Shown: in pieces, positions 390 to 36,795 of the stretch
Position numbering within the stretch: the stretch's first letter is position 1
Layout: every line of letters begins with the position of its first letter
Assembly: GCA_020851855.1 (NCBI GenBank)
Contig: JADZBY010000695.1
Span: 1-36,795, forward strand
DNA: 36,795 nucleotides
Source of the DNA: Anaerolineae bacterium
Lineage (GTDB): Bacteria; Chloroflexota; Anaerolineae; Aggregatilineales; UBA2796
Direction of reading: 5' to 3'
Position numbers and translations under genes: made by a program
The notes under the pieces: generated by a model
The model's database searches: none
Seen by the model: only the letters and a program-made list of their open reading frames with translations
Told to the model about the DNA's origin: nothing

Positions 390-427
390 CTGGCTAGAAC
401 AGCCTAAAGTGTAGGGATTTGTTGCTC

Positions 428-3696: not shown

Positions 3697-3719
3697 AACA
3701 GGGAAGTGATGAGGCTGTA

Positions 3720-4481: not shown

Positions 4482-4508
4482 GGCAGTGAGGGAACAAAGA
4501 GGACACTT

Positions 4509-4823: not shown

Positions 4824-4838
4824 AAGGGACCACGGATT

Positions 4839-5829: not shown

Positions 5830-5891
5830 CGCGCGTCCGCATGGCACGCAGACCTTAAAACACGGTGGAACCAGGCGCGAGGAGAGAGGTT

Positions 5892-7088: not shown

Positions 7089-7114
7089 CAGCGCAGCGGG
7101 CGGGAGCGCAGGCC

Positions 7115-7666: not shown

Positions 7667-7681
7667 GACAAAAGAGCGATT

Positions 7682-8617
7682 ATGGACGTGGTCATTCGTG
7701 ATCTGGCCGTCTTGTTGTTCTTTCCGGGTGGGCTGTTCCTGCTCGCCAGCGGATTGGCCTACCAGTGGGCGGACCGCAAGCTGGTGGCGCGCCTGCAAAA
7801 CCGGGTCGGGCCGCGCTGGTTCCAGCCGCTGGCCGACGTGCTCAAGCTGCTGGCCAAAGAAGAAGTGGTCCCGGCGGGCGTCAACCGGTTCCTGTTCGTG
7901 GCCCTGCCGGTGATTGCGCTGGCGGGCGCGCTGACGGCGGCGCTGTACGTGCCCATCCTCGGCCTGGGGCCGGCCTACAGATTCCCCGGCGACCTGATCG
8001 TCGTGGTCTACCTGCTCAGCCTGCTCACCATCGGGCTGGGGCTGGCCGGGTCGAACGTGGCGAGTTACTTCGCCCGCATCGGCGCAACGCGCACGCTGAC
8101 GCAGTTGTTCTCGTATGAAGCGCCGTTCTTGCTGGCGCTGCTCGGCCCGGCGCTCGTGGCGGGCACGTGGCAGATCGCCGGCGTGAACGACTTTGCCGCC
8201 GCGCGGCCCCTCATGCTGCTCACCCAGCCCATCGGCTTCGTGGTCGGCCTGTTCGGGCTGATGGGCAAGCTGGAACTGGCCCCCTTTGACGCGCCGGAAG
8301 CCGAAACCGAGATCGTGGCGGGCGCGCTCACCGAGTACAGCGGGCGGGGGCTGGGCATCTTCCAGCTGGCGCGGGCCGTCGAGCTGGTGATCGGCCTGAC
8401 GCTGATGGCGGCGTTCTACCTGGGCGGCGTGAGCGACCCACTCGGCTGGCTGGTCAAGACGCTGGCCCTATTGCTCGTCGTCGCTGTGGCGCAGAGCGTG
8501 CTGGTCCGGCTGCGCATCGACCAGACCGTCGGCTCCTGGTGGCGGTACGGGGCGCTTCTGGCGCTGGCCCAATTCCTGATCCTGATTGTGTTGAAGAGTG
8601 CAGGGGTGAACCTGTGA
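7682..8617 (+). CDS. NuoH/HycD/EchB-like membrane subunit
   Basis: RVGPRWFQPLADVLKLLAKEEVVP and PFDAPEAETEIVAGALTEYSGRGLGIFQLA signatures. Confidence 0.94.
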   Translation: MDVVIRDLAVLLFFPGGLFLLASGLAYQWADRKLVARLQNRVGPRWFQPLADVLKLLAKEEVVPAGVNRFLFVALPVIALAGALTAALYVPILGLGPAYRFPGDLIVVVYLLSLLTIGLGLAGSNVASYFARIGATRTLTQLFSYEAPFLLALLGPALVAGTWQIAGVNDFAAARPLMLLTQPIGFVVGLFGLMGKLELAPFDAPEAETEIVAGALTEYSGRGLGIFQLARAVELVIGLTLMAAFYLGGVSDPLGWLVKTLALLLVVAVAQSVLVRLRIDQTVGSWWRYGALLALAQFLILIVLKSAGVNL

Positions 8618-18600: not shown

Positions 18601-19589
18601 ACCATGCGCCAGCCGGTGTTGATCAGGCCGTCGCGGGACAGCGTATCGTAGAGCAGCGTGCTGTACGTGCGTGGGCCGACCGTCAAGAGCGTTTGCTCAC
18701 CGCCGGAGAGCACCTCTTCGGGCAGCGCCGGGTGCTCAAAGCCGCGCTGGCCGAGCACCTGAACTTGCGGCTCGGCAAGGCGGTCTGCAACGACGAAGGG
18801 CGTGCCGTTCGTATCGACCAGCACGGTCTGGAAGTTGAAGGCGGCATACGTGCCCGGTTTCAGGTTTTCGCCCAGGTAGTCTACCGGGCTGAGGGAGCCG
18901 AGCACATAACCGAGAAGGACATCGCCGTTGTAAACCGGCACGCCGATCTCCATGGACAGGACATTGGCGTTGCTGCCCGTGTTATCCGCCCACGCGGCGC
19001 GCCGCATGGTGAGCGACGAGTAATACACCTGATCGGGAGCGAGGTCTGTCAGCGCCCGGAAATAGGGCCGCCCGGATTCGGAGATGAGTTCCGTGCGGGG
19101 CACGGCGCGAACGGTCGTGCCCTGGGCATCCTGGGCCTCGATCACGCTGGTCTGTTCGCCCGCCGGGTTCAGAAAGCGCAAGTTCGTGAAGGTGAGGTCC
19201 TTGCCGGCCAGGTTCGAGGTGAACAGCAGGCGCAAGGGCACGAGATATGCGCCCGCAGCGGCGGTGTTTCCCTGGTCCAGGGCGTTGCCGTAGCGTTGCG
19301 TCTCTTCGCTGGCCGCCAGCTTGCGCATGATGCGGCTGGTGTCTTCGAAAAACTCCACCACGCGCGCGTTGACGCTGTCGATATGGGTGCTGAAGCCGAC
19401 CTGCGTCGCCTCGGTGACAAAACCTTCGAACAGCGGCGGCAGCAGGAAGGCGAAGATGGCCACCAGGATGATGAAAGTGACCACCACCGGCGTGAGCAGC
19501 TTGACGTTGACCGGGAGCCTGCGCCACAGCGCCCGAGGGCTGAACCGGCCAGATCGGGCGTGGACTTTTTGCGCGTGCATCGTGCTCAT
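12621..19589 (-). CDS. Giant (2322 aa) membrane sensor histidine kinase: extracytoplasmic Cache-like region, HAMP, about eight GAF domains plus a degenerate GAF, one PAS, HisKA, HATPase_c
   Basis: Two TM segments flanking an approximately 320-aa sensor; HAMP [22 protein letters not shown]; repeated ...GALDVQS..F..DD....LADQ.AIAI.NARL GAF ends; PAS [24 protein letters not shown]; HisKA [24 protein letters not shown]; N box [31 protein letters not shown]. No receiver domain seen. Confidence 0.93.
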   Translation of the reverse strand: [2322 protein letters not shown]

Positions 19590-21844
19590 CGCGTCCCCTC
19601 TAGCTTCATCCCAACCGTGTCCGGCGCTTCAGGGCTATCCTCGCCGCCCTGCGGAAGCGCTTCGGTGACGATCTCCGCGCTTTCTTGCGCCAGGGTCAGC
19701 CGGATCGTCGTCTGCGGGGCCTGCAAGGCCAGACCCAGCTCGCGGACCGCCGTTTGCAGCACCTGCGACACGTCCAACTGCTGCACGAGCTTGCCGGCGA
19801 TATCGCTCACCAGGCGCTCGCGGTAGGCCAAACGCTGCGTGTGCTCCAGCAGGCGCGCGTTGTCCGCCGAGACCGCCAACCGGTCGGCCAGTTCGCGGGC
19901 GAGCAGTCGGATGTTCTCGTTGTAATTCTGGCGGCCCACCATCCATTCGACCGCGCCAAAAATCTGGTCGCGCAAAATGACCGGGACGGCGAAGACCACC
20001 AGATCGTTCTCGATCCGCTCGACCAGATCGCGGCGCTCGACCGCCTGCCGCTGGAGTTCGGACCACGTCTCCGGCCCAGTCTTCACGCCCTGCCGGATGC
20101 GGCGAGAGGCCGCGTAGCCCTGCCACGCCTCGCCGAGCAGGCGGCGGTTCAGGTCTTCGATCTCGGACAGGCGCGCCTGGGACTCTTCAAAAAGCCGCGC
20201 GTTGGTGATGGCAATCGCCAGCTCGTCCGCAACGCTCTGGAACAGGCGCACGTCCGAGTCGGAGAACGACTCGGGCCGCCTGCTCTGCAGGTCCAGCGCG
20301 CCGATGATGCCATCCCGGGTGCGGAGAGGCAGCGCCAATTCGGCGCGCGTATCGGGCAGAAGTTCGTTGGCGCGGTGCACGTTGCTCGTGGACGTGTCGA
20401 GCGCGACCACGGCCTCACCATCCGCCGTGGCGCGCCCGATCACGCTCTGGCTGCCCACCGGGAGCCGGTGGCCACGCGCCAGCAGCGCCTTGCCGGCGTC
20501 GCCGGTGGACACGCGCAGCACCGCATATTGCCGCGTCGGGTCGAGCAGGAAGACCTGGGCATGATAGACATCCGGGAAGCGCGTGCGAATCAGCTCGATG
20601 ACCTCGCTCAGCAGGGCGTCCAGGTCGCGGATGCTGGAGATGAACTGCGCGATGTCGCGGGTGGCCTCGATGTCGCGCGTGCGCTGGGCGATACGGGCTT
20701 CCAACGCGCGGATGTCCTGCCGGGCCAGTTCCGTGATGCTGTTGAACGACTGGGCGAGCACGCCGATCTCGTCGTTCTGCGCCGGGGTCTCCATTTCTGC
20801 GATGTCCTGGCCCTGGGCAGCTCGTGCGGCGATCTGCGTCAGGCGGCGTATGGGCACGATGACGGTCATCTCATAGAAATACCAGACGCCGACCAGGACA
20901 ATGCCCGCGCCGACCAGGTACAGGCCCATCTGAATGAGGAACGGGCTGGCTTCGATGGGCGCAGACGCGATCTGCACGGCCCGCGTCTCGGCGACGATGC
21001 GGCGGCCCAGGTTGCCGACCACCGAAACGTAGGTGAGCACGCGCCGGTTGATGATCGGGCTGAGCAATTCGGTGGGCGACGCGCCGGCGCGCGATCCAAG
21101 CGCACGGGCTGCCGCCCGCGTCTCTTCGGTGGTGACCACCGGCTCGGAAAACGGCGATTGCACCCTGCTGTTCTGGTCGACGAGGTAGAAGAAAATCTGG
21201 CCTGCCTGGGTGTTGATTGGCCGGAGTGCGTCGTACACGCCGGGCACAGTCGATACCGGGCCGCGTGATGGGTCCACGTCGAAATACAGGAAGCCCACCC
21301 GCGCGCCCGCATAGTCGAGCGGCACGAGCACATCCAGGCGCGGCTCCGGCTCGGTGATCAGCGGCCCGATGTGAAGCCCGGACGTGATAGGTTCGCGTAT
21401 CAGCGCCTCGTGGTCGACCGGGTGAAGCGGCGACTCGCTGACGCCCTGTTGAACCGTGACCAGCGGCGCGCCGTAGATGGTCAGGTACGTGACTTCCCGG
21501 ATGTTCGCGTTCGCGTTGACGAAATCGCGCGCTGCGAGCCGGACCGCCACATACGCGACGCCTTCCGTAGTGCCCGTATTCAACGTGGTGAAGTGCTGTT
21601 GGAGCGTCTCATTCTGGGCGAAGCCCTGCACGGCGGTGACGAGCGCGTTCACGCCTGCGCTGAGCGCGTTCGCCCGCTCTGCCGTTACCGTGCGCATCAA
21701 CTGCCCGGCCACCGGCTCCGCCGATTCCAGGTAACGCGAGATGGCGAAGGCAGCGACGATCATCAGGACCAGCGCCGCGACGCCCAGGCCGAGGACGAGC
21801 TTGACCCGAACCGAAAGCGAAGCAAAACGCGCGGCGATGTTCAT
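19586..21844 (-). CDS. Membrane sensor protein, Cache-like/HAMP/GAF plus degenerate GAF, no catalytic output domain
   Basis: Two TM helices with extracytoplasmic region, HAMP-like VPIRRLTQIAARAAQGQDIAEM, GAF (YHAQVFLLDPTRQYAVLRVSTGDAG...LPDTRAELALPLRTRDGIIGALDLQSRRPESFSDSD), LNRRLLGEAWQGY motif, C-terminal LQAPQTTIRL. ATGA overlap with the downstream kinase gene. Confidence 0.85.
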   Translation of the reverse strand: MNIAARFASLSVRVKLVLGLGVAALVLMIVAAFAISRYLESAEPVAGQLMRTVTAERANALSAGVNALVTAVQGFAQNETLQQHFTTLNTGTTEGVAYVAVRLAARDFVNANANIREVTYLTIYGAPLVTVQQGVSESPLHPVDHEALIREPITSGLHIGPLITEPEPRLDVLVPLDYAGARVGFLYFDVDPSRGPVSTVPGVYDALRPINTQAGQIFFYLVDQNSRVQSPFSEPVVTTEETRAAARALGSRAGASPTELLSPIINRRVLTYVSVVGNLGRRIVAETRAVQIASAPIEASPFLIQMGLYLVGAGIVLVGVWYFYEMTVIVPIRRLTQIAARAAQGQDIAEMETPAQNDEIGVLAQSFNSITELARQDIRALEARIAQRTRDIEATRDIAQFISSIRDLDALLSEVIELIRTRFPDVYHAQVFLLDPTRQYAVLRVSTGDAGKALLARGHRLPVGSQSVIGRATADGEAVVALDTSTSNVHRANELLPDTRAELALPLRTRDGIIGALDLQSRRPESFSDSDVRLFQSVADELAIAITNARLFEESQARLSEIEDLNRRLLGEAWQGYAASRRIRQGVKTGPETWSELQRQAVERRDLVERIENDLVVFAVPVILRDQIFGAVEWMVGRQNYNENIRLLARELADRLAVSADNARLLEHTQRLAYRERLVSDIAGKLVQQLDVSQVLQTAVRELGLALQAPQTTIRLTLAQESAEIVTEALPQGGEDSPEAPDTVGMKLEGTR

Positions 21845-23556
21845 GAATCAGCCCCTCCGTTCCGGTTTGGCGATGCCGCATCCGTCGGGGCGGGCATGCC
21901 CAGGCGGATGCTGGTTCGGGTAGCGCCCAGCGCCTGCTGGAACGCATCGGTGGCCACCTCGATGAGCGAGTCCATGTCGCTGCGCGCCTGAAGCATGGTC
22001 GCGATCTGGTTGGCCACCTGTTCCCGCGCGACCGTCATCTGGGCTTGTTCGAAGAGCCGCAGGTTATCGAGCGACAGGGCGAGGCGCTGGGCGATGGCGC
22101 GCGCCAGTTCCAGGCTGCGCTGGTCCCAGACCCGGTCGCGCGGCGCTTGAAATTCCATGACGCCCAACACCTGCCCGCGCGAGTGGATGGGCACGACGAG
22201 CACCTGCGTGCCGTCGCGCGTCTCGATGCGCGGGTTGGCCGCGCCGACCAGCCCTGGCACAGGCGTGGCCGTCGGCACAATCGTGCCGCTCACCCAGTCG
22301 AAGCCGATGAGCTTGTCGGGGCGGCTTTCCAGGTAATGCACCCAGGACCGGCCCCGAATCTCCTGGTTCAGGCGCTCGATCTCGTAGCTGGTGGAGCGCA
22401 CCTGTTCCAGAAGGGTGTGGCGCTCGCGGTTGAGTTCCTGCTGCGCTTCGGTCAGGCGCAGGTTGTCGATGGCCATCGCCGCCTGCGTCACGATCGCCGT
22501 CAAGGTCTGGATGTCCTCGTCGCCAAACACGTTCTCCTGGACGCTCTGCACGTCCAGCACGCCGATGACCTGCGGCCCACGCCGGAGCGGCACGAGCAAT
22601 TCGGAGCGCGTGGCCGGCAGGAACTCCGAGCGGTGCTCCTCTGGCGATGTGAGCGTGACGTGCTGCATCTGGCCGGTGCGCACGGCCTCGTTGACCGCCG
22701 TTGCGCCGTCCGGGGCGATGCGCCTTCGGGGCAACTCGCCGCCGCCGCGCGCTTCGGTATTGCCCGTGGCAAGGCTGATGACGCCGGTCTTTTCCTGGAC
22801 GAGAAACGCCTGGACGTGGTAGTAACCCAGCTGCATCCGGATCATCTCGACGGTGCGCGCCAGCAGGTCCTCGACAGACTGCGCCTCGCCGATAGCATGG
22901 CTGGTGGCGGCCATGGTGCTCACCTCGGCGGCGAGCGCCTCATTGCGCTGGGCCAGCGCGCGTTGCTCGCTCAGGAACAGGATCAGCGTGATGCCGATGA
23001 GCGACAGCGACAGCGTGGCAAAGGAAATCTGTGTGGCGAGCGCCAGCGGCTGGATGCGCTGGAACGCGAGCAGGCCCAGCGCGCTGAACAGGAACACGAC
23101 GATGACGGCGAGCAGCGTGAGCATGACCGTGACCAGCAGGCCGCGCCGCGTGAGCAGCACCGCCGCCGACACAACCGGGACGGCCAGGCCGAGCGCGAAC
23201 AGGCTATCCAGGCCGCGAAAGATATACAGCCCAAAGCCCAGGGCGAAGAGCATCATGACGTACAGCACGCGGGCAGAGTGCAGGTTGCCCCGGCTGGTCA
23301 TGATCGCGACGACGAGCACGCTTGCGGCGACGACAAGCTGCAACGCGACGAAAAAGGATGAGGTGATGAGGACGGGAATATTCGCCAGAAACAGGATGTT
23401 CGGCGCGCTCGGCAGAAGCGGCGTCTGGAACAAGCCCACCAGGAGCAAAAGGAACAGCACGAGCGCCATCGCGGTCAGGCCGCGCGCCTGGCGCTGCTCC
23501 AGGGGGTTCGCATACTTGTGACGGACCTGGAATGGCCACCGGAGCCTTCTGAACAT
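21841..23556 (-). CDS. Polytopic membrane GAF-domain protein, no catalytic output domain
   Basis: About six N-terminal TM helices, GAF (YYHVQAFLVQEKTG...LPATRSELLVPLRRGPQVIGVLDVQS), LNQEIRGRSWVHYLESRPDKLIGF, degenerate GAF, C-terminal LGATRTSIRLGMPAP. Confidence 0.85.
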   Translation of the reverse strand: MFRRLRWPFQVRHKYANPLEQRQARGLTAMALVLFLLLLVGLFQTPLLPSAPNILFLANIPVLITSSFFVALQLVVAASVLVVAIMTSRGNLHSARVLYVMMLFALGFGLYIFRGLDSLFALGLAVPVVSAAVLLTRRGLLVTVMLTLLAVIVVFLFSALGLLAFQRIQPLALATQISFATLSLSLIGITLILFLSEQRALAQRNEALAAEVSTMAATSHAIGEAQSVEDLLARTVEMIRMQLGYYHVQAFLVQEKTGVISLATGNTEARGGGELPRRRIAPDGATAVNEAVRTGQMQHVTLTSPEEHRSEFLPATRSELLVPLRRGPQVIGVLDVQSVQENVFGDEDIQTLTAIVTQAAMAIDNLRLTEAQQELNRERHTLLEQVRSTSYEIERLNQEIRGRSWVHYLESRPDKLIGFDWVSGTIVPTATPVPGLVGAANPRIETRDGTQVLVVPIHSRGQVLGVMEFQAPRDRVWDQRSLELARAIAQRLALSLDNLRLFEQAQMTVAREQVANQIATMLQARSDMDSLIEVATDAFQQALGATRTSIRLGMPAPTDAASPNRNGGADS

Positions 23557-23594
23557 GGTCTGATCCCCTGCGCCTTGTCCTTACGCCTGTGTCC

Positions 23595-25337
23595 CTAATT
23601 CCGCCCGTTTGCGCTGTCCGCCGGATCGGGCGGCGCGGCCCCGTTGTCGCCGCTGGGAGCCGTGCCGAGGCGGATCGAGGCCTGTGCAGCGCCCAGCGCC
23701 CGGCTCAACTCGTGAATGGTCGCCCGCGCCAGCGAGTCGATGTCGTTGATGCCCTGCAGATTGCCCGAAATGGTGTTCACTTCAAGCTCGCGTTGGGCCA
23801 ACTCCTGCGCCTGTTCGAAGAGGCGCGCGTTGTCGATGCTCAACGCCAGCCGCTGCGCCACCGACTGCAACACGTCGAGCGTCTCCGCCTGCCGGACCGC
23901 GCCGCCCATCTCGACTTCGATAGCGCCGATGGACCGCCCGCGCAGCTCGATGGGCACGGACAGGACCAGCCGCTCGCCCTCGCTGCTGCGAATGACCGGG
24001 CGGCGCTTTCCGGCGGCTTCGTCCAGGCCCGCCGTCCACGACGAGTCGCGCTGAAGCCGGTTATCGGAGAGCGTGTAGCCGATGGTCTGGTCGCTGCGCG
24101 CCTTCAGGTAATCTTCCCAGGCTTTGCCGGTCAGGCGCTGGTTCAGGCGTTGCGTCTCGCGCAGGTTGATCTCCGTTTCGAGGAACATCCGGCGCGTATC
24201 GCTCAATTCGACCTTCAAATCTTCCAACTGGCGGGTCTGGTTGATCGCCACGCCAACCTGAATGGCCAGGATGCGCAGATTTTCAACCACATCGGCGGTG
24301 AAAGTGCCCATGCGCGTGCTCTGTACGTCCAGCGCGCCGATGACCTGGTCGCCGATGACCAGCGGCAGGACCAGTTCGGAGCGCGTATCGCGCAACAGCT
24401 CGTTCACGCGGTGACCGGCGAAGACATCCATGCCCAGCTCGCCCGTGGTGATCGCGTTCGGCTCGCCGGTCAGCAGCGCCCTGCCGATGGCGCTCTGCGG
24501 CCCGACCGCCAGCCGGTGACCACGCTCCATGAGCATTTCGCCGATCTCGCCTGTGCCCGCTACCAGGCTGGCGTAACGTTTGTCGTTATCGACCAGGAAG
24601 ATTTGCACATAGTAGAAGCCGAAGCGGTCGCGGATATAGTCCACCGCGCGCTGAAGCAGAGCATTCGGGCTGTTTGCCGTGGCGGCGATCTCCGCGATCT
24701 CCGCCGTGGCGCGCAGCTGGGTCATGACGCGGGCGCTGGAGAACAGCACGCGCTGAAACTCGTTGGAGTAGACCGCCGCCAGCACGCCGACGATGATCAG
24801 CAGCATGGCGGAGAGCAGCGTCGAGCCGAGCAGCGGCCCCTGGGCGAGCGGCGTCGGGCCGAGCGGGCCGAGCACCCCCTGCCACTGCAGGATGGCGTAC
24901 ACGATCAGGATGGTCACCACCGTGACCATAACGGCCAGTGCGCGCCGCCAATCCCATACCAGGCTGGCGTAGATCAGGGGCAGCGTCAGGAGCAGCACCG
25001 CCGAAGCGCTCGGCCCGGATACAAACAGGACCGACACGGCGAAGGCCAGCAAGAAGGCAAACATGACGCTCATCGCCGGGCGCAACTGGCCGGAATGGAC
25101 CAGCCCTACGATGGCCAGCAGGATGAGCATTCCCGCCAGTGCGCCGGCCAGCAGGCTGTTCACGAAGGTGGTGCGTTGGTCGGTGGAAGCCAGGGCGACG
25201 AGCAGGGCAAAACAGCCCGCCGCTGTGAAGATGGCGAGCAGAAGCGTGGCGCGCGCCCGCACCGCGCTGTGATCGTCCGCGTATCGGTGGCGGGGCAGGA
25301 ATAAGGCGCTGTAGAAGTCGAACAGCAGGGATTGCAT
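23595..25337 (-). CDS. Polytopic membrane GAF-domain protein, no catalytic output domain
   Basis: About six TM helices, GAF ([26 protein letters not shown]...[26 protein letters not shown]), [24 protein letters not shown], C-terminal [15 protein letters not shown]. Confidence 0.85.
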   Translation of the reverse strand: [580 protein letters not shown]

Positions 25338-25343
25338 GTCGCA

Positions 25344-27038
25344 TTAACCTCCGGCGGCCTTGTCCCCATTTTTGCCCGCGGCAGGCACGCCTAGCCGGAT
25401 GGCGACTCGCGGGGCCTCAAAGGCATCGGCAAGACTCTGCGTGGCGGCGGCGATGACCGACTCGACATTGGTCGCCGCCTGCATACGCGCCGTGATCTCG
25501 TTCACCATCGCTTCACGCTGGGCGATGCGCTGCGCCTCGTCCAGCAGGCGGATGTTTTCGGCAGCCAGTCCGAGCCGCTCGACCACCTGCCGCAGGATGA
25601 CGAGGTGATCCGGGCCGAGATACTGGTCGGGCGACAGCTCAAACTCCATCGCGCCGATGACCTGCCCACGCACGCTGATCGGGAAGCTCACTACCTTGTT
25701 GGTCGGGTTGCTGCGGGTGATGACCTGCGCGCGCCGGATGGCCTCGCTCATGGTCGCCGTGCGCTCGGCGGCGTCTTCCACACGCCCCGTTGAGGGATCG
25801 ACGGTGTAGGCGGGCGTCTGCGGCAGTCCGCGCAGGTATTCGGCCCACGCGCCGCCGGTCAGTTGTTGGTTCAGCCGCTCGATCTCGCGCAGGCTGGCGC
25901 TGGCTTGCTCGTACAGGCGCTGGTTTTCGGCCAGCCGGGCCTGCGCATCCGCAAACAGCCGCGCGTTGTCGATGGCGACGGCGATCTGGTTGGCCAGCGT
26001 CTCGCACGTTTCAATGTCTTCGGGCTGAAAGGCCTCGATGTTCTTGCTCTGCAGGTCCAGCGCGCCAATCGTCTCGTTGCCGACGCGCAGCGGGAGCACC
26101 AGCTCGGCGCGTGTGCCTTCCAGGAACGCCGAACGCCGGAAGGACTGCTCTTCGGGCGTGTCGCGCACGATGACCTGTTGCCCGCTGACCGTCACGCGGC
26201 CAATCACGTTCAGGCTGCCCACGCCGACCTGTTGCCCGATGGCCGGCCCGCCGCTCTGGTTGGTGCTGGCCACGAGCGTGGCGCTCTTGCGGTCCATATC
26301 GACCAGGAAAAGCTGCACCTCGTTGGCGTCGTCGAACGTGTCGCGCACCAGCCGGACCGTCTCTTCGAGCAGCGTGTTGAGGTCCATGCGCGCGATGAGC
26401 AGCCGCCGCGCCAGCGCCGCACTCGCCCCGGCCAGCCGCATGTTGCGCTGCTCTTTCGCGGCGGTGATCTGGCGGGCGGCGCTGTGCAGGCTCTGCGCCA
26501 GGGCATAATTCACGCCGCACAGCACCATCAGGAGCGCCAGGTTGAGGGCGAGCAGGTCGCGCCCTTCGGCGGGCGTCAGCGCCGGGTCAAACCAGATGCG
26601 CGCAAAAAGCACGAGCGCCGTGAAGACGCCCGCGTAGAGAATAGTCCAGTGCCCGATGAGCAGCGTGGCGAGCGAAATGCCGACCAGCAGCGCGGCAAAG
26701 GCGACCTGCAGCGCGATGTGGTTCATCAAGAGCAGCCCGGCGATCATCACGAACCACGCGCCGACCAGGATCAGCGCGCCGACGGTCTGCTGGCGGCGGC
26801 GGGTGAAGACCATGGCGGCCAGCGCCACGCCCAGCAGCAGCGCGCCGACCAACAACAGGCCGGGCAGCTCTGCGACCGCCAGCTGGCCGCCCAGCGCGCG
26901 CAGCAGCGTGCTGATCGCGCCGATGGCCAGCGCGGCGAGCAGCAGCGCGCTGACCACGTAGGCGCTCGCTGCGCGGCGGCGCTCCAGCGGGCCGGTGTAT
27001 TTCGAGAGCCGGAAGATGTGCGTGATCAGATCGCGCAT
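25344..27038 (-). CDS. Polytopic membrane GAF-domain protein, no catalytic output domain
   Basis: About six TM helices, GAF (NEVQLFLVDMDRKSATLVASTNQSG...LEGTRAELVLPLRVGNETIGALDLQSKNIEAFQPED), LNQQLTGGAWAEYLRGLP, C-terminal FEAPRVAIRLGVPAAG. Confidence 0.85.
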   Translation of the reverse strand: MRDLITHIFRLSKYTGPLERRRAASAYVVSALLLAALAIGAISTLLRALGGQLAVAELPGLLLVGALLLGVALAAMVFTRRRQQTVGALILVGAWFVMIAGLLLMNHIALQVAFAALLVGISLATLLIGHWTILYAGVFTALVLFARIWFDPALTPAEGRDLLALNLALLMVLCGVNYALAQSLHSAARQITAAKEQRNMRLAGASAALARRLLIARMDLNTLLEETVRLVRDTFDDANEVQLFLVDMDRKSATLVASTNQSGGPAIGQQVGVGSLNVIGRVTVSGQQVIVRDTPEEQSFRRSAFLEGTRAELVLPLRVGNETIGALDLQSKNIEAFQPEDIETCETLANQIAVAIDNARLFADAQARLAENQRLYEQASASLREIERLNQQLTGGAWAEYLRGLPQTPAYTVDPSTGRVEDAAERTATMSEAIRRAQVITRSNPTNKVVSFPISVRGQVIGAMEFELSPDQYLGPDHLVILRQVVERLGLAAENIRLLDEAQRIAQREAMVNEITARMQAATNVESVIAAATQSLADAFEAPRVAIRLGVPAAGKNGDKAAGG

Positions 27039-27044
27039 GGTCGC

Positions 27045-28748
27045 TCACTCCTGGCGAGCGTCGCCGGGTTTGCCGGCGGCGCGTGTTGCCGCTTCCGCGC
27101 GCAGGGCCATATCCGCCGGTTTGTTCGGCAGCTCGAGGCGAATCCGCGCCCGCCGCGCGCCCAGCGCCTCGGCAATCTCTTGCACCGTGCCCAGACGGAT
27201 GCTTTGCAGGTCGCCACGGCTCTGCAGGTTGCCGCTCAGCCGGTTCATCAGGCGCTCTGTCTCGGCGCGCTGCGACGTTTCCGTGTACAGACGGGCGTTT
27301 TCCAGCGCGATGGCCAACTGGTTGCCGATCTGCTCCAACACGGCGAGGTCGATGGACACGTAATGCCCGGCTTCGCGGTGCAAGACGCAGTACGCGCCGA
27401 TGGTCCGGCCACCGGCGATGAGCGGCACGATGGCGGCGGCGCGCATCTGCGACGAGGCCAGCAGGCGGTAGTCCGGGTCTTCGGAGCCGCTGATATCGTC
27501 CAGGACGAGCGGCTCTGCCGTGTTGAAGACGAAGCGCAACGCCGCCCGCTCGGTCGGGAAGTCGGCCACGACGGGCATGCCTTCGACGAGCAGGTACATG
27601 TTCAGCGTGGCGCTCTCTGTGTTGCGCAGCGCGACGACGATCAGGTCGGAATCGATGATCTTCTGCGTCTCTTCTTTGGCGATCTGGAAGATGCGGCCCC
27701 GGTCAAAGGTGCTCGTCACGCGGCGGCTGAGTTCGGTGATGCGCTCCAACTGGTTGGCGCGGCTGCGAAGCTCGTCGTAAAGCTGGGCGTTGTGCGCGCT
27801 GATGGCCAGTTGCGCTGTGACGGCGGACGCGGCTTCCAGTTCTTCCGAGGTGAAGTCGTGCACGTCGTAAAAGGCATCCAAGCCGACGCTGCCGATCAAA
27901 CCGCCCTGCACAATCATGGGCAGGATGGCGATGGACTTGATCCCGATTGTCTGCCACAGTTGCCGCTCCGGCCCCAGGTCGACCGCCTTCTCGACGTTGT
28001 TCACGACGACGGGCTGCCGCTGCTCCATCAGGCGCTCCTGGAGCGGGCTGACCATCGAGATGCGTGTGCCCAGGATGCCGTTATCCGGGTATTCGGAGAT
28101 GACCGTGCCGATGCGTTCTTTGTAATCGAAGACGACGATGCCGACGTGGTCGATGCGCAGCGTTTCCACGAGGCTGCGGGCGGCGCGCTTGAGCATCTCC
28201 GGGCTATCCAGCGCCGAGCTAAAATCCCGCGTGACCTCGTACAGCGAGCGCATCATGTCGATTTGCCGGATCAACCGCCCGGTGCGTGGGCTGGGCGCTT
28301 TCAAGTGCTGGAGCATGGCCGGGCCAAGCTGCATGGCCAGTACGGCCAACGCCTGGTCGAGCAGCGCAACGTTGGCCTTCGACTCGTCAATGTAGGCCAG
28401 CATCGCGCCGATGCCATCGTTGCCCACCGCGACCGGGTAAATGCGCGCGTTGGGCATCGTGCCCATCTGCCGCTCGCGGATGACCGGGATGAGCGGCGAG
28501 GACTCGTCCACGATGTTCTGAGCCGAGGCTTCGGCGGGGACCGCGCCCGCCGCGCCGACCTGCAGGCTGACATTGCCGATGACCTGGATGCACTGCACGC
28601 CGCGCACGCCATGCCCCGCAAAGCGCTCGCACAGCATGGTCAGAAACGACGTCACCCAGCCTTCCACGGGCGGGTTGGCGAACGCCTGACGGTTCAATTG
28701 GAGCGAGAGCGAGAGCACGTCTTCGAGCAGCGGGCTAGCTGTGCTCAT
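27045..28748 (-). CDS. Soluble multi-GAF protein
   Basis: 567 aa without TM helices; GAF-like segments around RIDHVGIVVFDYKERIG...GLIGSVGLDAFYDVHDFTSEELEAASAVTAQLAISAHNAQLY and DSDLIVVALRNTESATLNMYLL...TIGAYCVLHREAGHYVSIDLAVLEQIGNQLAIALENARLY; C-terminal EALGARRARIRLELP tail shared with the membrane paralogues. Confidence 0.8.
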   Translation of the reverse strand: MSTASPLLEDVLSLSLQLNRQAFANPPVEGWVTSFLTMLCERFAGHGVRGVQCIQVIGNVSLQVGAAGAVPAEASAQNIVDESSPLIPVIRERQMGTMPNARIYPVAVGNDGIGAMLAYIDESKANVALLDQALAVLAMQLGPAMLQHLKAPSPRTGRLIRQIDMMRSLYEVTRDFSSALDSPEMLKRAARSLVETLRIDHVGIVVFDYKERIGTVISEYPDNGILGTRISMVSPLQERLMEQRQPVVVNNVEKAVDLGPERQLWQTIGIKSIAILPMIVQGGLIGSVGLDAFYDVHDFTSEELEAASAVTAQLAISAHNAQLYDELRSRANQLERITELSRRVTSTFDRGRIFQIAKEETQKIIDSDLIVVALRNTESATLNMYLLVEGMPVVADFPTERAALRFVFNTAEPLVLDDISGSEDPDYRLLASSQMRAAAIVPLIAGGRTIGAYCVLHREAGHYVSIDLAVLEQIGNQLAIALENARLYTETSQRAETERLMNRLSGNLQSRGDLQSIRLGTVQEIAEALGARRARIRLELPNKPADMALRAEAATRAAGKPGDARQE

Positions 28749-29124
28749 TGGGACGCCCCTTCTGGATAAAACCCAGGATTTCGCCGGGAAAACGGTCGAT
28801 GTCGATGGGCTTGGGGATGTAGCCGTCGCATCCGGCTTCGAGGGACTTCTCCCGGTCGCCCTTCATCACGTTGGCGGTGAGCGCCACAATCGGGACGGCG
28901 TCAAGCTCTGGCAGGCGGCGAATCTCGTTGGTGGCGGCGTAACCGTCCATGCCGGGCATGCTGATGTCCATCAGGATCAGGTCCGGCTTGTGTTCCACGG
29001 CGAGGTTGATGCCCTCGTGCGCGTCGCCGGCCTCGATGACTTCCATCCCTTCGGCCATCAGCACCCGTTTTACGAGCAGACGGTTATCGTTGCGGTCCTC
29101 GATGTACAGAATGCGCGCAGTCAT
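28735..29124 (-). CDS. Stand-alone CheY/DivK-like response regulator receiver
   Basis: ILYIEDRNDNRLLVKRVLMAEG, PDLILMDISMPGMDGY, VPIVALTANVMKGDREKSLEAGCDGYIPKPID; no output domain. Confidence 0.95.
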   Translation of the reverse strand: MTARILYIEDRNDNRLLVKRVLMAEGMEVIEAGDAHEGINLAVEHKPDLILMDISMPGMDGYAATNEIRRLPELDAVPIVALTANVMKGDREKSLEAGCDGYIPKPIDIDRFPGEILGFIQKGRPNEHS

Positions 29125-29484
29125 GCCCGAAGCACCCCTTTTCTCGCGCTGGCGCTCGCAGTCCGGCAGAAGGCGTCGGGCCAGCGAGGCGAGTTACTCT
29201 TCGTAAGGGCCGTGCGGGTCAGTGGGAGTACGGCCCATCCAGGCGATCCATACCAGCGCTTCACGTTAACATACCATAGAAATGCTCTCGTAGGCATCAC
29301 GATGTATAAACTATTTGTCACAGCTTTTCTGGAGTGTGCCGCCGCGACGCCTCTACGTTTCATTATACTCACCGCCCGAATCGTAAACCGGTCCACGTCT
29401 CTCAATCCTGTCGCAGTTCCGCGCGTCGGGTAGAATGGACATGTTTATGAATGCTGCCACCCGTGCCACCCGCGAGGCGAGAAG

Positions 29485-29802
29485 ATGCCGTACATTGTCG
29501 TGCTCATCGTCCTGGTCTGGCTGCCCATCACCGGGCTGGCTTATCTATTGCGGGGCCGCTTCTGGCGCGGATTCATCCTGCGCATGGGCATCTCCGTGGC
29601 GGCGCTGGTCGCGCTGGCCGCGCCGTGGATCAATTACCTCACGGCGTCGCGGGTGTGGTATTACGATACGAGCCTCATCCTGGGGCCGACATTCTTCTAC
29701 GCGCCCTTCGAAGAGTACCTGTACTTCCTGCTGCTGCCGATCCTGTGCGCATTGGTCCTGCTCTGGGTCTGGCGGCGCGCCTACCCGGAAGATTTCACGT
29801 GA
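29485..29802 (+). CDS. Lycopene cyclase-domain (CrtYc/CrtYd-like half) membrane protein
   Basis: 105 aa, three TM helices, RVWYYDTSLILGPTFFYAPFEEYLYFLLLPIL matches the W.Y....LG...  P.EE..F....P pattern of heterodimeric lycopene beta-cyclases. Confidence 0.72.
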   Translation: MPYIVVLIVLVWLPITGLAYLLRGRFWRGFILRMGISVAALVALAAPWINYLTASRVWYYDTSLILGPTFFYAPFEEYLYFLLLPILCALVLLWVWRRAYPEDFT

Positions 29803-29808
29803 TGTGCC

Positions 29809-32133
29809 TCACCGCCCCGTGCTGATCCACAGCTGACGCCCGTCGGTGGCGATCTCGACCGTGCCGTCGTAGTCGGTTCGAAACAGCGGCGTCTCGCCTA
29901 GCGCCCGCACGACGGATTCGGCGGGCATGGCGGCCCGGTTGCCCGCTTCGGCAAAGACGACGGCGACCTGCGGACGCAGTCTGGCCAGGAACTCCGGCGG
30001 GTTGGCGCTCGCCGCGCCGTTCGAGGGCAGTTGCACGACCACCGCACCCGCATCGCCGTGCGCCCTGGCGACGTCCGCCGCACGCTCCGCCGTCATCTCC
30101 GCCATGAACAGGAACGTGGCGTCGCCGTGCGCCAGCCGCAGCGCCAACGAGGAGCGCTCCGGGCCGTCGTCGGGCGCGTAGAGCACGTCCAGCCGTACGC
30201 CGTCATCCGTCTGGGCCGAATACCCGGCGCGCACCGGCGCAATCGCCGTGTTCCGGGCGCGCAGCGCATTTTGTACGGCCACCGCCTGCGACTCATCCGG
30301 AATGAGCGCGGCTTGCACGGCGTAGCGTTCCACGAGCGGGCCGAGCGCGGCGGTGTTCGCCGGCTTGTCGCCCGTGATGACGAGCAAATCGAGCGCCCGC
30401 TTGTGAAAGGGCAGCCGGTCGCCCAGCGCAGTCAACAGCCGGGTCGGGTTTTCGCCGCCGTCGATGAGCACGTGCGCGCCGTTGGGCGTCTGGATCAGCA
30501 CGGCGTCGCCTTCGCCCGTGTCCAGGAACCAGACGTGCAGCCTTCCGTCCGGGCGGGAGCGCAGCAGCGCGCCGATCAGGACCAGTAACGCGAGCGCACC
30601 GGCCAGTGGGGCCGCCGTCGGGATGTGCAGCCGGGCGAGCAACTCCCGGCGGCGCTCCGGTGGGCGCGACAGGGTGGCCGTCGCGCCGAACAACACGGCG
30701 TAATAGGCCAACACCGCGCCTGCACTTGCATCGATGGGCAGGCCCGGTCCCGCCGCCGCGCGGATGATGGCCAGCGTGTAGGCCAGCGGCAGGGCCGCCA
30801 TCCAGGCCATGATCTGGCCCAGCGGCAGGATGACCGCGCCGGCTGCCACGGCGAGCAGGCCCAGCGTCATGATCCACGCCTGCGCGGGCGCGACGAGCAC
30901 ATTCACCGGCAGCGCCGCGAGCGAGAACTCCGGGTTGAGCAGCAGAAGCACGGGCAGGACTGTGAGCTGCGCCGCCAGCGTGACGAGCACCGTATCCGCT
31001 GCCAACGCCGCGAAACGCCGCGCGGTGTTCTTGGCGAATAGCCGGGCGGCCAGCGCTTCGGTGAGGCGGCGCATCGGCCCGTAGTACAGGATCAGGCCCA
31101 GTGTGGCCATGACACTGAGAATCAGCCCGGCATCAAAGAGCGCCATCGGGTCGGCCAGCGTGAGCAGCCACGCCGAGGCGGCGAGCGCTGTCAGCCCGTC
31201 CGACTGGCGGCCAAAACGTAGCGCGGCAATGCTGAAGGTGACCATGATCGCGGCGCGCACGACGGGCGGGTCCGCGCCGACCAGGGCGGTATAGGCCACG
31301 ATCCCGGCCAACGTGAGCATGGCGGACGGGACGCGCCCGATCAGGCGCGCCGTCAGCGCAGTGAGCAGCCCGGCCAGCACGGCGATGTTCGCGCCGGAGA
31401 TGACCAGCAAGTGCGCCGCCCCGGTCTGGCGAAAGGCGGCGTCGGTGTCGGGCGCGATGCCGCTGCGCTCGCCGAGGAGTACGCCTGCCAGCAGCCCGGC
31501 GTGAGGCTCCGGCAGCAGACGATTGATCAGGCTGTGCGCCGACTCGCGCACGCCGTACAGCGCGCCGAGCAGCGGATTGCCTTCGCCGCGCGCCTGAACC
31601 GCGACCTCGGCCCGGTACACGACGGTGTACACGCCGCTCCGCGCCAGATAGTCGCGCCACGAGAAGGCATCGAACGCGCCTGGCGTCTGCGGCCATCCAT
31701 AGACGCGCACGCGGTCGCCGTAGTGGTAATCGCCCACCCGGTCGGCGTACACGAGCGCCGCGCCGTGCGCCGGGCGCGCCGATTCGCCCACCGGGCGGAT
31801 CGTCTCCACCTCGACCCGAAGCCGGGTATTGGCGTCGCGCACGTCGGGCGGCTCCGTCACCACGCCGAACAGTACGGCGGGGTTGCCGTCGTTGTACGCG
31901 ACGAGATGCGACTCGTCCAGGATTGGCTGAACGGCAGCATAACGCGCCGCGCCCAGTCCGGCGGCCAGCGCGCACAGCCCGATCAATCGGAGCTTCGCAT
32001 CGCGGCGGAAGAGCACAGCCATTCCCAGCCCGGCCAGGATGGGCAGAACCGGCCACGCGCCAGAATCGAGGGCGAGACGTGAGGCGAAAAAGATGCCAGC
32101 CGCCCAGGCGAGCGCCATGTAGAAGAGGATCAC
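29809..32133 (-). CDS. comEC: ComEC/Rec2-family competence protein with DUF4131, Competence and metallo-beta-lactamase-like regions
   Basis: FSWRDYLARSGVY, GERSGIAPDTDAAFRQTGAAHLLVISGANIAVLAGLL, GADPPVVRAAIM, C-terminal VWFLDTGEGDAVLIQTPNGAHVLIDGGEN. Confidence 0.9.
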   Translation of the reverse strand: MILFYMALAWAAGIFFASRLALDSGAWPVLPILAGLGMAVLFRRDAKLRLIGLCALAAGLGAARYAAVQPILDESHLVAYNDGNPAVLFGVVTEPPDVRDANTRLRVEVETIRPVGESARPAHGAALVYADRVGDYHYGDRVRVYGWPQTPGAFDAFSWRDYLARSGVYTVVYRAEVAVQARGEGNPLLGALYGVRESAHSLINRLLPEPHAGLLAGVLLGERSGIAPDTDAAFRQTGAAHLLVISGANIAVLAGLLTALTARLIGRVPSAMLTLAGIVAYTALVGADPPVVRAAIMVTFSIAALRFGRQSDGLTALAASAWLLTLADPMALFDAGLILSVMATLGLILYYGPMRRLTEALAARLFAKNTARRFAALAADTVLVTLAAQLTVLPVLLLLNPEFSLAALPVNVLVAPAQAWIMTLGLLAVAAGAVILPLGQIMAWMAALPLAYTLAIIRAAAGPGLPIDASAGAVLAYYAVLFGATATLSRPPERRRELLARLHIPTAAPLAGALALLVLIGALLRSRPDGRLHVWFLDTGEGDAVLIQTPNGAHVLIDGGENPTRLLTALGDRLPFHKRALDLLVITGDKPANTAALGPLVERYAVQAALIPDESQAVAVQNALRARNTAIAPVRAGYSAQTDDGVRLDVLYAPDDGPERSSLALRLAHGDATFLFMAEMTAERAADVARAHGDAGAVVVQLPSNGAASANPPEFLARLRPQVAVVFAEAGNRAAMPAESVVRALGETPLFRTDYDGTVEIATDGRQLWISTGR

Positions 32134-32163
32134 GGGCGGAGTCCTTGTCTTGAACAGTAAGTA

Positions 32164-33267
32164 TCAGAGCACGACGAGGTTATCCCGGTGAATGACCTCG
32201 TCGCCAAAGGTATAGCCCAGCACGCTGGCAATGCGCGACGAGCGCACGCCGAGCAACTGCCGGACTTCCGCGCTGCCGTAGTTGGTCATGCCCACCGCGA
32301 TGGGCTTGCCGTCCGGCGCGTGCACCCGGACCACCGCGCCGCGCTCGAACTTGCCGGTGAGCGCCGTGACGCCGACGGGCAGCAGGCTCGCGCCGCCATT
32401 GGCCAGCCGGTCCGCCGCGCCCTGGTCAACCTTGAGCGCGCCGTGCGCTTTTTCGGAGAGCAGCCAGCGCTTGCGGCTCTCCAGGTGGGTGGTCTGCGGC
32501 GCAAAGTACGTGCCCAGGCTTTCGCCCGCCACGACGCGCGGGATGGCGTTGGGCAGGTCGCCGCTGGCGATGACTGTCGCCGCGCCGCTGTGGCCGGCCA
32601 GTTGCGCCGCCTGCAACTTGGTGATCATGCCGCCCGTGCCCAGGCCGGTGGACGTGCCGCCCGCCCGCGCCCAGATGCCCTCGTCAATGACCTCAACGCG
32701 ATGAATCAGCTCGGCGGTCGGATCGGTGCGTGGATCGGCGCTGTACAGGCCGAGCTGGTCGGTGAGCAATACCAGCAGGTCGGCGTCGATCAGGTTGGCG
32801 ACCAGCGCCGAGAGGTTGTCGTTGTCGCCGACCTTGATCTCTTCTGTGGCGACCGTGTCGTTTTCGTTGATGATGGGCACGATGCGGTGCGCCAGCAGCG
32901 TCAGCAGCGTATCGCGCGCGTTCAGGTAGCCGGTGCGGTGCGTCAGGTCGCCGCGCGTGAGCAGGACTTGCGCCACGCGGATATCGAACAGGCCAAACAT
33001 CTCGCTGTAGAGCTGGATCAAGCGCCCCTGACCGACGGCGGCGAGCATCTGCCGGGCGGGCACAGAACGGTCAAAGGCGGGATTATTGAGCGCCTCGCGG
33101 CCCGCCGCAATCGCGCCGGACGACACGAGCGCAATCCACGCGCCCTCGTCGTGCACCTGGACCGCCTGCCGGACGATTTCCAGGATGCGCCGCCGGTCCA
33201 GCCGCCGCGTGCCGCCGGTGAGCACACTTGTGCCGAGTTTGACGATGATGCGTCGTGGTTCAGCCAT
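32164..33267 (-). CDS. proB: Glutamate 5-kinase with C-terminal PUA domain
   Basis: RRIIVKLGTSVLTGG, VSSGAIAAGREAL, AAVGQGRLIQLYSEMF, VPIINENDTVATEEIKVGDNDNLSALVANLIDADLLVLLTDQLGLYSADPR, GTGGMITKLQAAQLAGHSGA. ATG at 33267. Confidence 0.95.
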   Translation of the reverse strand: MAEPRRIIVKLGTSVLTGGTRRLDRRRILEIVRQAVQVHDEGAWIALVSSGAIAAGREALNNPAFDRSVPARQMLAAVGQGRLIQLYSEMFGLFDIRVAQVLLTRGDLTHRTGYLNARDTLLTLLAHRIVPIINENDTVATEEIKVGDNDNLSALVANLIDADLLVLLTDQLGLYSADPRTDPTAELIHRVEVIDEGIWARAGGTSTGLGTGGMITKLQAAQLAGHSGAATVIASGDLPNAIPRVVAGESLGTYFAPQTTHLESRKRWLLSEKAHGALKVDQGAADRLANGGASLLPVGVTALTGKFERGAVVRVHAPDGKPIAVGMTNYGSAEVRQLLGVRSSRIASVLGYTFGDEVIHRDNLVVL

Positions 33268-33362
33268 GCTTCTACCCTTGCGCAGCGGCGAATCCCGATG
33301 CCGAGCCGGAGCCAATCGTAGCGCTAGCAGTTTATCCGGACAGGGCGGATTTGACCATCTTC

Positions 33363-33407
33363 ATAACAAAACAAGGCCGGACATCGCGCGGTCACGACAT
33401 CCGGCCT
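33363..33407 (-). terminator. Candidate Rho-independent terminator
   Basis: On the minus strand: ggccggatgtcgtgaccgcgcgatgtccggcc followed by ttgttttgttat. Confidence 0.75.
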
Positions 33408-33436
33408 CGAAGACCTGGGCATTGCACTGCGGCGTG

Positions 33437-33529
33437 CTACTTCTTCTTGCCGCCCTTCTTGGCGGTATCCTTCTCGCCGCCCTTGTCCGCCGTCTTGCCT
33501 TTGGTCGTCCCAGCCTTACCCTTGCCCAT
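33437..33529 (-). CDS. Very small Lys/Gly-rich basic protein (30 aa: MGKGKAGTTKGKTADKGGEKDTAKKGGKKK)
   Basis: ATG at 33529 preceded by GAGGAG Shine-Dalgarno; own promoter-like element upstream and terminator downstream. Confidence 0.6.
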   Translation of the reverse strand: MGKGKAGTTKGKTADKGGEKDTAKKGGKKK

Positions 33530-33584
33530 GCCGCTGCTCCTCTTCTGGAGTCGTCCGCGCACCATCGCACGGATCGTATTTGCT

Positions 33585-33612
33585 ATTGTATGCCAACGCC
33601 GATCCGAGTCAA
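33585..33612 (-). promoter_or_regulatory. Candidate sigma70-type promoter
   Basis: Minus strand TTGACT - 16 nt - TACAAT. Confidence 0.6.
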
Positions 33613-33663
33613 TAGGGCTGCAGGGGGATGCGGCGCTTCTTACCGCATTGTGACGCGCGCGTA

Positions 33664-35937
33664 TCACGTTTCGCGTCTTCTGCGCTGTCGGAAGAGCGTC
33701 AAGGCGGTCAATATACCCGTCACCATCAGGGAAAAGCCGGTTAGCGCCAGGCCCGCCGTGAAACTCGCAGGCCGGTAACGCATGTCTACCTGGTGTGACC
33801 CGGACGGCAACGCGAGCGCGCGGAAGTTCAGGTTAGCGCGGGCGATGGGCACGGGCGCGCCGTCGAGTGTGGCTTCCCAACCCGGATAGAACGTGTCGGC
33901 CAGCACGAGATAACCGCCGCCGGGCGAATCGACCGCGATCTGCACCCACTGCGGCTCGTCGGCCACGATACGCGCCGTACCGCCTGAGAACGGCGCAACG
34001 GGCGGCGCGGAAGCCGTCTCCAGCATAACCGTCCGGCGTGGGTCAAAACTGGGCGCGGCCATCGCCTCGACGGCGGCGTCCAGGTCCGGCGCGGCGACAG
34101 CCTCACCCACCAGCCAGACGCGCGGCGCATCACGCTCCAGCCCGACCGCCGCCGCGAGCGCCAGCACGTCGCGGCGCGGGGACGAGTCCAGCAGCCGGGT
34201 AAGGCGCTCGAAACCATCCGGGCGCAGCGGATCGAAGTTGTTCAAGCTGGATTGTCCGTCGAGCAAGTTCACGTTGGCCAGCCCGGAGCGCCGGAACGTG
34301 TCCAGCCGGTCGGGCGGCAGGCGGTAGTCGGAGAAGGGCAGGAACTCGTCGTACACCAGCCGCTCGAACTCGTCCTGCGGGGTATACGTGCGCGTCGCGG
34401 GCGACGAATCAGGCAGCGCGTCAGGCAGTGGGGCAAAAAAGTCCGCGCCCGTCGTCGGGTTGCTGCGCCCATTGGCCCAGGTCAGGTCCAGAGCCAGCAG
34501 GATGAGCACCGCCGCACTCCATAAGCGCTGGCGCGGGTGGCCGGGACGCGGGCGCTGGCCGAGCAGCCACAGTCCGGCGGCGACCAACGCGCCGAGCGTC
34601 GCCAGCCCTTGCGCCAACTGGCCGAGTAAGGGCGCCTGATCGCGGACCAGCGCCCCGCCCATCAGCCCGGTCAGCGCCAGGCCGAGCGCCGCTGCCAGAC
34701 CGAGCCGCCGGGCGCGTCGCGCGGCGGGCGTGTGCGGTGCGCGCAGCAGCGCTGGCGCGCCCAGCGCGGCGATCATGACCAGGGCGAAGGCCGTCGCCAG
34801 CAGGAAGCGCGCCGGGGCCTGAAACAGGTTGAAGCCGGGCACATGGCGGTACAAAAAGGGGAAGATCGGCGTGTAACTGCCAAAGGCGAGCAGCAGCGAC
34901 AAGCCGCCCACAGCACCGAAGAAACCGATCAGCCCGTCGTGCGCCGTGCGCGACTGCCGCGCGCGCCGCCGGAATCGCCCGCTCAGCGTGGGCAGCGCGA
35001 TGAGCGCGGTGATCACGCCCACGTAGGCCGCCGTCTCGAAATACGCGCCGCCGATGGCATACGTGCCGTCGCCGGGGTTGCCGAAGAAGTCCGGGTTGAA
35101 GAACGTGACGAGTGAGGGCACGGGAAATGAGAAATTCAGGGCGAAGGCTTCATCCACGCCGCCCGCTCGCTGCGACAGGCGCTGCAATTCGAGCGTGGGC
35201 GCGAGCTGCACGCCGGCCAGACCGACGCCGAGCGCGACCGCGACAAGTACCGGCGCAAGGCGTCGCACCGGCCAGCGCGCCGCCCAGACGCGCCACGCCG
35301 CATACGCGCCGCCCAGCCCCAGGCCGTACGCCGCCCACTGGGCATGCCCGGCGAGCAGCAACATGGCGGTGACCAGCGCCGCGCCGAGCATACGCAGCAC
35401 GCCGGGCCGTGCGATCAGCGCGTCCAGGGCCAATAGCAGCCAGGGCAGCCACGCCGCCACGTCGATCATAGGCGGCGTGCCCAGCCGGGCGATGAGCGTC
35501 GTGCTCAGTGGGAAGGCCAGCACGGCGATGCCGCGCCCCAGCGCGGGAAGTCCCAGGCGGCGGGTGTACAACTCCATGCCCAGCCCGGCCCACAGGATGT
35601 GCACCACGCCGAGCAGCCCGACGAGCGGCGCGGGATTTTTGACCAGGAGCAGGACCAGGTGCGGCGGGTAGAGCACCGCGCTCTGGTAATTGGCCAGAAA
35701 GGGTGCGCCCGCGCCGTTGTACGGATTCCAGAGCGGCAGGCGTCCGGCGGCGATCTCGGCGCTGGCGAAGGCGCGCCACGGGCCGAACTGGAGCGCGGGC
35801 AGGCCCCAGTACAGCGCGTCGCCCAGCGCCAGCCGGTGAAAGAGCGCCAGCAGGGCGGCGACCAGCAGTACCAGCGGCAGTCCGCGCGGCAGATCGGCGG
35901 TCTGGACGGTTGGGGAGTCGGTTGAAGGGTGTGCCAC
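33664..35937 (-). CDS. YfhO-family polytopic membrane protein
   Basis: Many TM helices; PLWNPYNGAGAPFLANYQSAVLYPPHLV; C-terminal GGGYLVLADTFYPGWEATLDGAPVPIARANLNFRALALPSGSHQVDMRYRP. In-frame GTG at 35937 preferred: the upstream extension to 36120 reads through a repeat. Confidence 0.85.
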   Translation of the reverse strand: MAHPSTDSPTVQTADLPRGLPLVLLVAALLALFHRLALGDALYWGLPALQFGPWRAFASAEIAAGRLPLWNPYNGAGAPFLANYQSAVLYPPHLVLLLVKNPAPLVGLLGVVHILWAGLGMELYTRRLGLPALGRGIAVLAFPLSTTLIARLGTPPMIDVAAWLPWLLLALDALIARPGVLRMLGAALVTAMLLLAGHAQWAAYGLGLGGAYAAWRVWAARWPVRRLAPVLVAVALGVGLAGVQLAPTLELQRLSQRAGGVDEAFALNFSFPVPSLVTFFNPDFFGNPGDGTYAIGGAYFETAAYVGVITALIALPTLSGRFRRRARQSRTAHDGLIGFFGAVGGLSLLLAFGSYTPIFPFLYRHVPGFNLFQAPARFLLATAFALVMIAALGAPALLRAPHTPAARRARRLGLAAALGLALTGLMGGALVRDQAPLLGQLAQGLATLGALVAAGLWLLGQRPRPGHPRQRLWSAAVLILLALDLTWANGRSNPTTGADFFAPLPDALPDSSPATRTYTPQDEFERLVYDEFLPFSDYRLPPDRLDTFRRSGLANVNLLDGQSSLNNFDPLRPDGFERLTRLLDSSPRRDVLALAAAVGLERDAPRVWLVGEAVAAPDLDAAVEAMAAPSFDPRRTVMLETASAPPVAPFSGGTARIVADEPQWVQIAVDSPGGGYLVLADTFYPGWEATLDGAPVPIARANLNFRALALPSGSHQVDMRYRPASFTAGLALTGFSLMVTGILTALTLFRQRRRRET

Positions 35938-35980
35938 TGTGGTTCCGTTTCGGCTACTCGGGTCTATTCCCGCGAAATTC

Positions 35981-36091
35981 CGTCCCTTACTCCCCCGACC
36001 CCTCTCTCCCAGGGGGCGAGAGGGGAGAAAGGCGATGCGGCGCGCTTCTTTCACCCCTCGCCATGAGGGAGAGGGGCCGGGGGTGAGGGTT
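35981..36091. repeat. Nested palindromic GC-rich repeat (copy B)
   Basis: cgtcccttactcccccgacccctctctccc...gggagaggggccgggggtgagggttt; 130-bp period with copy C. Confidence 0.9.
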
Positions 36092-36110
36092 TGTAGGTGC
36101 ACTTTCGTAC

Positions 36111-36222
36111 CGTCCCTCACTCCCCCGCCCTCTCTCTCCCAGGGGGCGAGAGGGGAGACATCCGACGCTGCGCGCTTCTTTCACCCCTCGCCATGAGGGA
36201 GAGGGGCCGGGGGTGAGGGTTT
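36111..36222. repeat. Nested palindromic GC-rich repeat (copy C)
   Basis: cgtccctcactcccccgccctctctctccc...gggagaggggccgggggtgagggttt; near-identical to copy B. Confidence 0.9.
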
Positions 36223-36250
36223 TTTCCCGGCGCGCCATCCACGAAAGACG

Positions 36251-36259
36251 TGCTAAGAT
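36251..36259 (+). promoter_or_regulatory. Possible extended -10 element (TGCTAAGAT) upstream of the prepilin peptidase-like gene
   Basis: TGnTAAGAT, about 50 bp before the ATG at 36311; no convincing -35. Confidence 0.35.
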
Positions 36260-36310
36260 AGTACACCGTCTTTTCGGACACACGCCGCACAGGTTCATCA
36301 CAGTCAATCT

Positions 36311-36795
36311 ATGCACCTGCACCCACTCGCCGCGCTGGCCGCTATGCTCGCCGGATTCCTTGCCGGAGTCGCCGTCAACCTGCTGGCCGACTACCTGCCG
36401 GCGCGGCGGCATTACGATCTGGCCCGCCGCAGCCCATTCACGACGGTCAAAGCGCAGCGCCCGTTTTTTCGCCCGCGCCTGCCGGATGGCCGTATCGCGC
36501 CGGTCTGGGCCTGGTCGGGGATGCTGGCGGTGGTGGGCCGCGCCGGGCGTCCGGTGCGGCATACGGCGCGACATATCGCCGTCGAGATCGGGCTGGCGGC
36601 GGCGTTTTTGCTGCTAACTGCTGTGTACGCTGGCGCGCCATTCCTGCCATTTTACCTGTTCTATGCGGCGTGCATGGCGCATGTGGCCGTGACGGACATC
36701 GAGCACCGCTGGATCATGGCCGAAACGATCGGGGCGGGCCTGATCGCCGGACTGGCCGAGTCGCTGGTTGTGGGGCGCATCCCACTCGCGGACGC
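36311..36795 (+). CDS. Prepilin peptidase-like (A24 family) integral membrane protein, truncated by the window end
   Basis: MHLHPLAALAAMLAGFLAGVAVNLLADYLPARRHYDLARRSPF...CMAHVAVTDIEHRWIMAETIGAGLI; the DIEHRWI segment fits the first active-site Asp motif. Confidence 0.7.
   Translation, partial: MHLHPLAALAAMLAGFLAGVAVNLLADYLPARRHYDLARRSPFTTVKAQRPFFRPRLPDGRIAPVWAWSGMLAVVGRAGRPVRHTARHIAVEIGLAAAFLLLTAVYAGAPFLPFYLFYAACMAHVAVTDIEHRWIMAETIGAGLIAGLAESLVVGRIPLAD

Follow-up and report, generated by a model that had tools for sequence, protein, structure and literature searches.

The window analysed here is a stretch of 36,795 nucleotides from the genome of an Anaerolineae bacterium, a 5.1-Mb draft in 817 contigs with a GC content of ~66%. 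On its minus strand, a 396-base gap separates the gene of a YfhO-like membrane protein (33664..36120; PF09586) from proB, encoding glutamate 5-kinase (32164..33267; TIGR01027, 439.8 bits). This gap holds a small gene-like unit in the same orientation, here called the mini-gene, with the YfhO-like gene as its upstream neighbor and proB as its downstream neighbor. The unit opens with a sigma-70-like promoter, TTGACT-16-TACAAT (33585..33612, minus strand; 10 of 12 matches), in which the -35 hexamer TTGACT occupies 33612-33607 and the -10 hexamer TACAAT, after a 16-nt spacer, 33590-33585. A Shine-Dalgarno (SD) sequence, GAGGAG (33537..33542, minus strand), precedes the ATG at 33529-33527 by 7 nt, and the ORF that begins there, MGKGKAGTTKGKTADKGGEKDTAKKGGKKK, comprises 30 codons and a TAG stop at 33439-33437 (33437..33529 overall, minus strand). 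Downstream lie an intrinsic terminator stem-loop of 17 pairs, GT pairs allowed, with a loop of 4 (33372..33409, minus strand) and its T-rich tail, TTTTGTTATG (33362..33371, minus strand). The original prediction had described this arrangement as well placed, and promoter, SD, ATG, 30 codons, stop, hairpin and T-rich tail were each found base for base, in the correct order and with the correct spacing. The predicted 11 Lys residues and net charge of about +8 for the 30-aa peptide held on recount. At this locus a promoter, SD, start codon, stop codon and terminator of its own follow one another as in an independently transcribed small-protein gene, and the unit occurs as a single copy in the genome rather than as a repeat.

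A ComEC-like competence protein is encoded 30 bases after proB on the same strand (29809-32133), and the two genes possibly form an operon. The YfhO-like frame opens with 50-60 codons (LTPGPSPSWRGVKEARRI...) that belong to a dispersed repeat, seen at 35930-36120 and 36059-36223 on the minus strand and in dozens of copies in the genome; most of the 94 matches of the YfhO-like protein in its own genome are to this part. The gene itself probably begins further downstream. Elsewhere in the window, a complex I/hydrogenase-like subunit cluster (two antiporter-type, 20-kDa, 49-kDa, NADHdh) occupies 419-8617 on the plus strand and is interrupted by a VIT1-family transporter gene (3693-4481). Six consecutive GAF-domain genes, including that of a 2322-aa histidine kinase with eight GAF matches, span 12621-28748 on the minus strand, beside a response regulator at 28735-29124.

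The composition of the ORF is that of a coding sequence. Its third-position GC is 0.87, versus 0.871 in 17 genes of the window, with 0.47 and 0.50 at positions one and two. Its synonymous codons fit the window's genes to a degree matched by only ~0.02% of draws (chance 0.0002, about 1 in 5000) in which the same amino acids were encoded at the flanking, local base composition. A reference set was compiled of 914 SD-preceded ORFs of 20-60 codons, listed from 679 kb of the same genome. Codon use resembles that of the genome's genes, as in a small-protein gene, although against the whole-genome base composition the ORF ranks only 108 of 914 in this set, which is unfiltered for ORFs within real genes. 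Upstream of the ATG, no stop interrupts the frame as far as a GTG at 33667, which overlaps the preceding stop codon; read from there, the product would have 76 aa. The extension has a third-position GC of 0.61 and shows no codon bias, 36% of draws doing as well; the 76-aa reading was rejected as not coding-like in its added part, and ATG 33529 is for that reason the likely start. Both the elements and the coding-like composition can be read directly from the DNA.

Among the signals, the promoter is the only sigma-70-like match in 28700-36795, and since 0.7 are expected by chance in these 8 kb it is weak and not significant by itself; its weight comes from its position. A promoter of at least 10/12 matches lies upstream of 5 of the 914 SD-preceded short ORFs, the mini-gene among them. 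Strong terminators follow 6 of the 914, and the 17-pair stem of the mini-gene is the longest of the six. The region surrounding the terminator folds at z -4.15, that is, 4.15 standard deviations below shuffled sequences, none of 200 being as good. Lys makes up 37% of the residues of the mini-gene; the next highest value in the set of 914 is 13%, and Lys accounts for 1.25% of codons in the window's genes. ORFs of 25-60 aa with SD and ATG and at least 30% Lys were absent both from 3 Mb simulated from local intergenic sequence and from 3 Mb simulated from whole-window sequence. The mini-gene unit exceeds chance.

Relatives of the mini-gene were sought at several taxonomic depths. A DNA search of 60 relatives matched only the window itself, and a peptide search of these and 395 class members found no homologue, the best matches having E values of 0.26 or worse; two weak matches that were inspected fall inside or antisense to other long frames. 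The pattern of an SD followed by MGKGK gave six matches in 153 members of the order, none a homologue: some mark the N-termini of EF-Tu and of what looks like ribosomal protein L16, and the others are dissimilar 17-codon frames. A tighter form of the pattern, applied to 399 members of the phylum, gave a single match with a stop after six codons. Within the family, a KKxxKKK-stop pattern returned mostly the tails of HU proteins, and also a SET-domain-like protein, but no homologue. Plasmids and viral contigs yielded no homologue of the mini-gene. The position upstream of proB was also compared. proB is present in 8 of 10 other family members, at 68-73% identity, and in all eight the sequence upstream differs from the window and has no comparable Lys-rich short ORF; in some of them TTGAC-like and TATCGT- or TAGAAT-like boxes are visible by eye close before proB. 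No SD-preceded short ORF above 20% Lys was found in 810 kb of family sequence, mostly from the closest relative by proB, nor any short ORF above 20% Lys upstream of proB or next to YfhO homologues.

The search for a conserved peptide or DNA in related genomes, proposed with the original prediction, thus returned no relative. The nearest genomes compared belong to other genera, so that the absence of homologues marks the mini-gene as lineage-restricted and does not disprove it. A large catalogue of small ORFs (smORFs) cautions that artefacts are over-represented among those observed a single time and that searches recover very short sequences poorly (PMC11364881); both cautions apply here. The claim of a complete gene-like transcription unit is well supported by the codon choice, the outlier values and the strength of the terminator, with no relative found at the DNA or peptide level.

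After the initial Met, the peptide consists only of G, K, T, A, D and E, with no Arg, aromatic or Pro residue. Since Ala is the largest hydrophobic residue past the start, it should be unstructured, a disordered polycation of 30 residues. The closest stretches to it in the family are mostly the Lys-rich C-terminal tails of HU, which recur across the family; the genome's own HU ends KNGKEKGKGKGRGGKK. The genome encodes two HU proteins, one with this Gly/Lys tail and one without, and such pairs of tailed and tail-less HU recur in other family members. Derivation of the peptide from an HU tail is not supported: its score against the genome's own HU is equalled by 14% of shuffled peptides, and that against the best of five tails by 4%. 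Because the likeness is one of composition only, electrostatic binding of polyanions is the best-supported mechanism. A nucleic acid- or ribosome-associated role, as originally suggested, is compatible with the comparable Lys/Gly tail that the genome's HU carries; having no support from homology, it stays a guess.

We propose that transcription begins near 33578 from a sigma-70-type promoter, that the RNA would be translated from ATG 33529 into the 30-residue peptide, and that it would terminate in the hairpin at 33372, leaving ~100 nt to proB. As a short free polycation, this peptide would most likely bind polyanions electrostatically, be they nucleoid DNA, RNA, ribosome or polyphosphate, in the way expected of the Lys/Gly tail that HU carries. 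Transcription and translation of the mini-gene, and the stability and binding of its peptide, are what we infer from these sequence features. That the mini-gene yields a translated product we consider fairly probable. To the full mechanistic statement, of a genuine lineage-specific small-protein gene, transcribed from near 33578 and yielding an unstructured, polyanion-binding polycation, we assign an even chance.

Other explanations bear on whether the peptide is the product at all. The transcript could be a regulatory RNA of ~210 nt, non-coding or dual-function like SR1 of Bacillus, with the peptide incidental or a second product. The original prediction had named such an sRNA as the alternative, and it retains some support in the unit's own promoter and strong terminator and in the body upstream of the terminator, which folds somewhat better than shuffled sequences (z -2.28; 5 of 200 shuffles as good). 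We regard it as unlikely, because a coding sequence would account for the codon bias, the third-position periodicity and the good spacing of the SD, and because no Rfam family reaches its gathering score in the window. Doubtful, too, is that the small ORF simply arose in the 3' region of the YfhO-like gene, as a proto-gene or by chance, with the hairpin being that gene's terminator and translation weak or absent. The YfhO-like gene is indeed followed by the hairpin, in the same orientation and without another gene in between, and no conservation was seen; yet the 6 Mb of simulated sequence contained nothing comparable, the 679 kb of real genome contained no other case, and the synonymous codons are gene-like.

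Since a terminator follows the small ORF ~100 nt ahead of proB, in the same orientation, and the scan found no further promoter at its threshold in front of proB, the unit would also suit a leader peptide and attenuator, in which the position of the ribosome on the Lys codons decides termination at the hairpin before proB. We judge this very unlikely, as the leader has 11 Lys and no Pro codons ahead of a proline-pathway gene, family relatives lack any such ORF before proB, and no antiterminator better than shuffles exists: the best leader pairing of the terminator's 5' arm reaches -12.1 kcal/mol versus a shuffle mean of -15.0 kcal/mol, with 93% of shuffles as good or better. Membership in one of the known families of small basic ribosomal proteins, such as bTHX or the COX24 type, is suggested by the MGKG start, the Lys residues at the end and the similar length, in which the peptide is like bTHX. 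It is extremely improbable, given a peptide free of Arg, aromatic and Pro residues that matches no family in Pfam or NCBIfam at E values up to 1 and nothing in the PDB at E values up to 10.

We therefore return to the small-protein gene as the preferred reading. This kind of gene is already well known. The present one is of interest as a gene-like unit whose length falls below what most annotation pipelines handle and which, having no known relatives, can be judged only from codon choice, signals and outlier composition. If translated, it would add to a little-studied group one Lys-rich micro-protein specific to the lineage, with few consequences beyond this. A broader idea, that a free-standing, lineage-specific polycationic micro-protein does in trans what the Lys tails of HU or H1-like proteins do in cis, namely condense or organise nucleoid, RNA or polyphosphate, is speculative and appears rather improbable to us.

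Several known systems resemble parts of this arrangement. bTHX, a basic protein of about 26-30 aa, likewise starts MGKG, but the mini-gene peptide differs in its lack of Arg and aromatic residues and of any family-library match. SR1/SR1P of Bacillus subtilis, a dual-function sRNA, shares a short transcript with promoter, small ORF and terminator; the likeness is one of layout alone, with neither homology nor a base-pairing target behind the comparison. AlgP-type H1-like proteins are far longer than the mini-gene peptide and built of Ala/Pro-rich repeats. As histone H1-like Lys-rich bacterial proteins they are nevertheless, like the predicted peptide, lysine-rich disordered polycations, a comparison made by description and not by sequence (PMC9239181). 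The Lys-rich C-terminal tail of HU is similarly Lys/Gly- or Lys/Ala-rich, of low complexity and very basic, with Lys residues at its end; it is fused to the HU domain, whereas the mini-gene peptide is free-standing and has a promoter and a terminator to itself.
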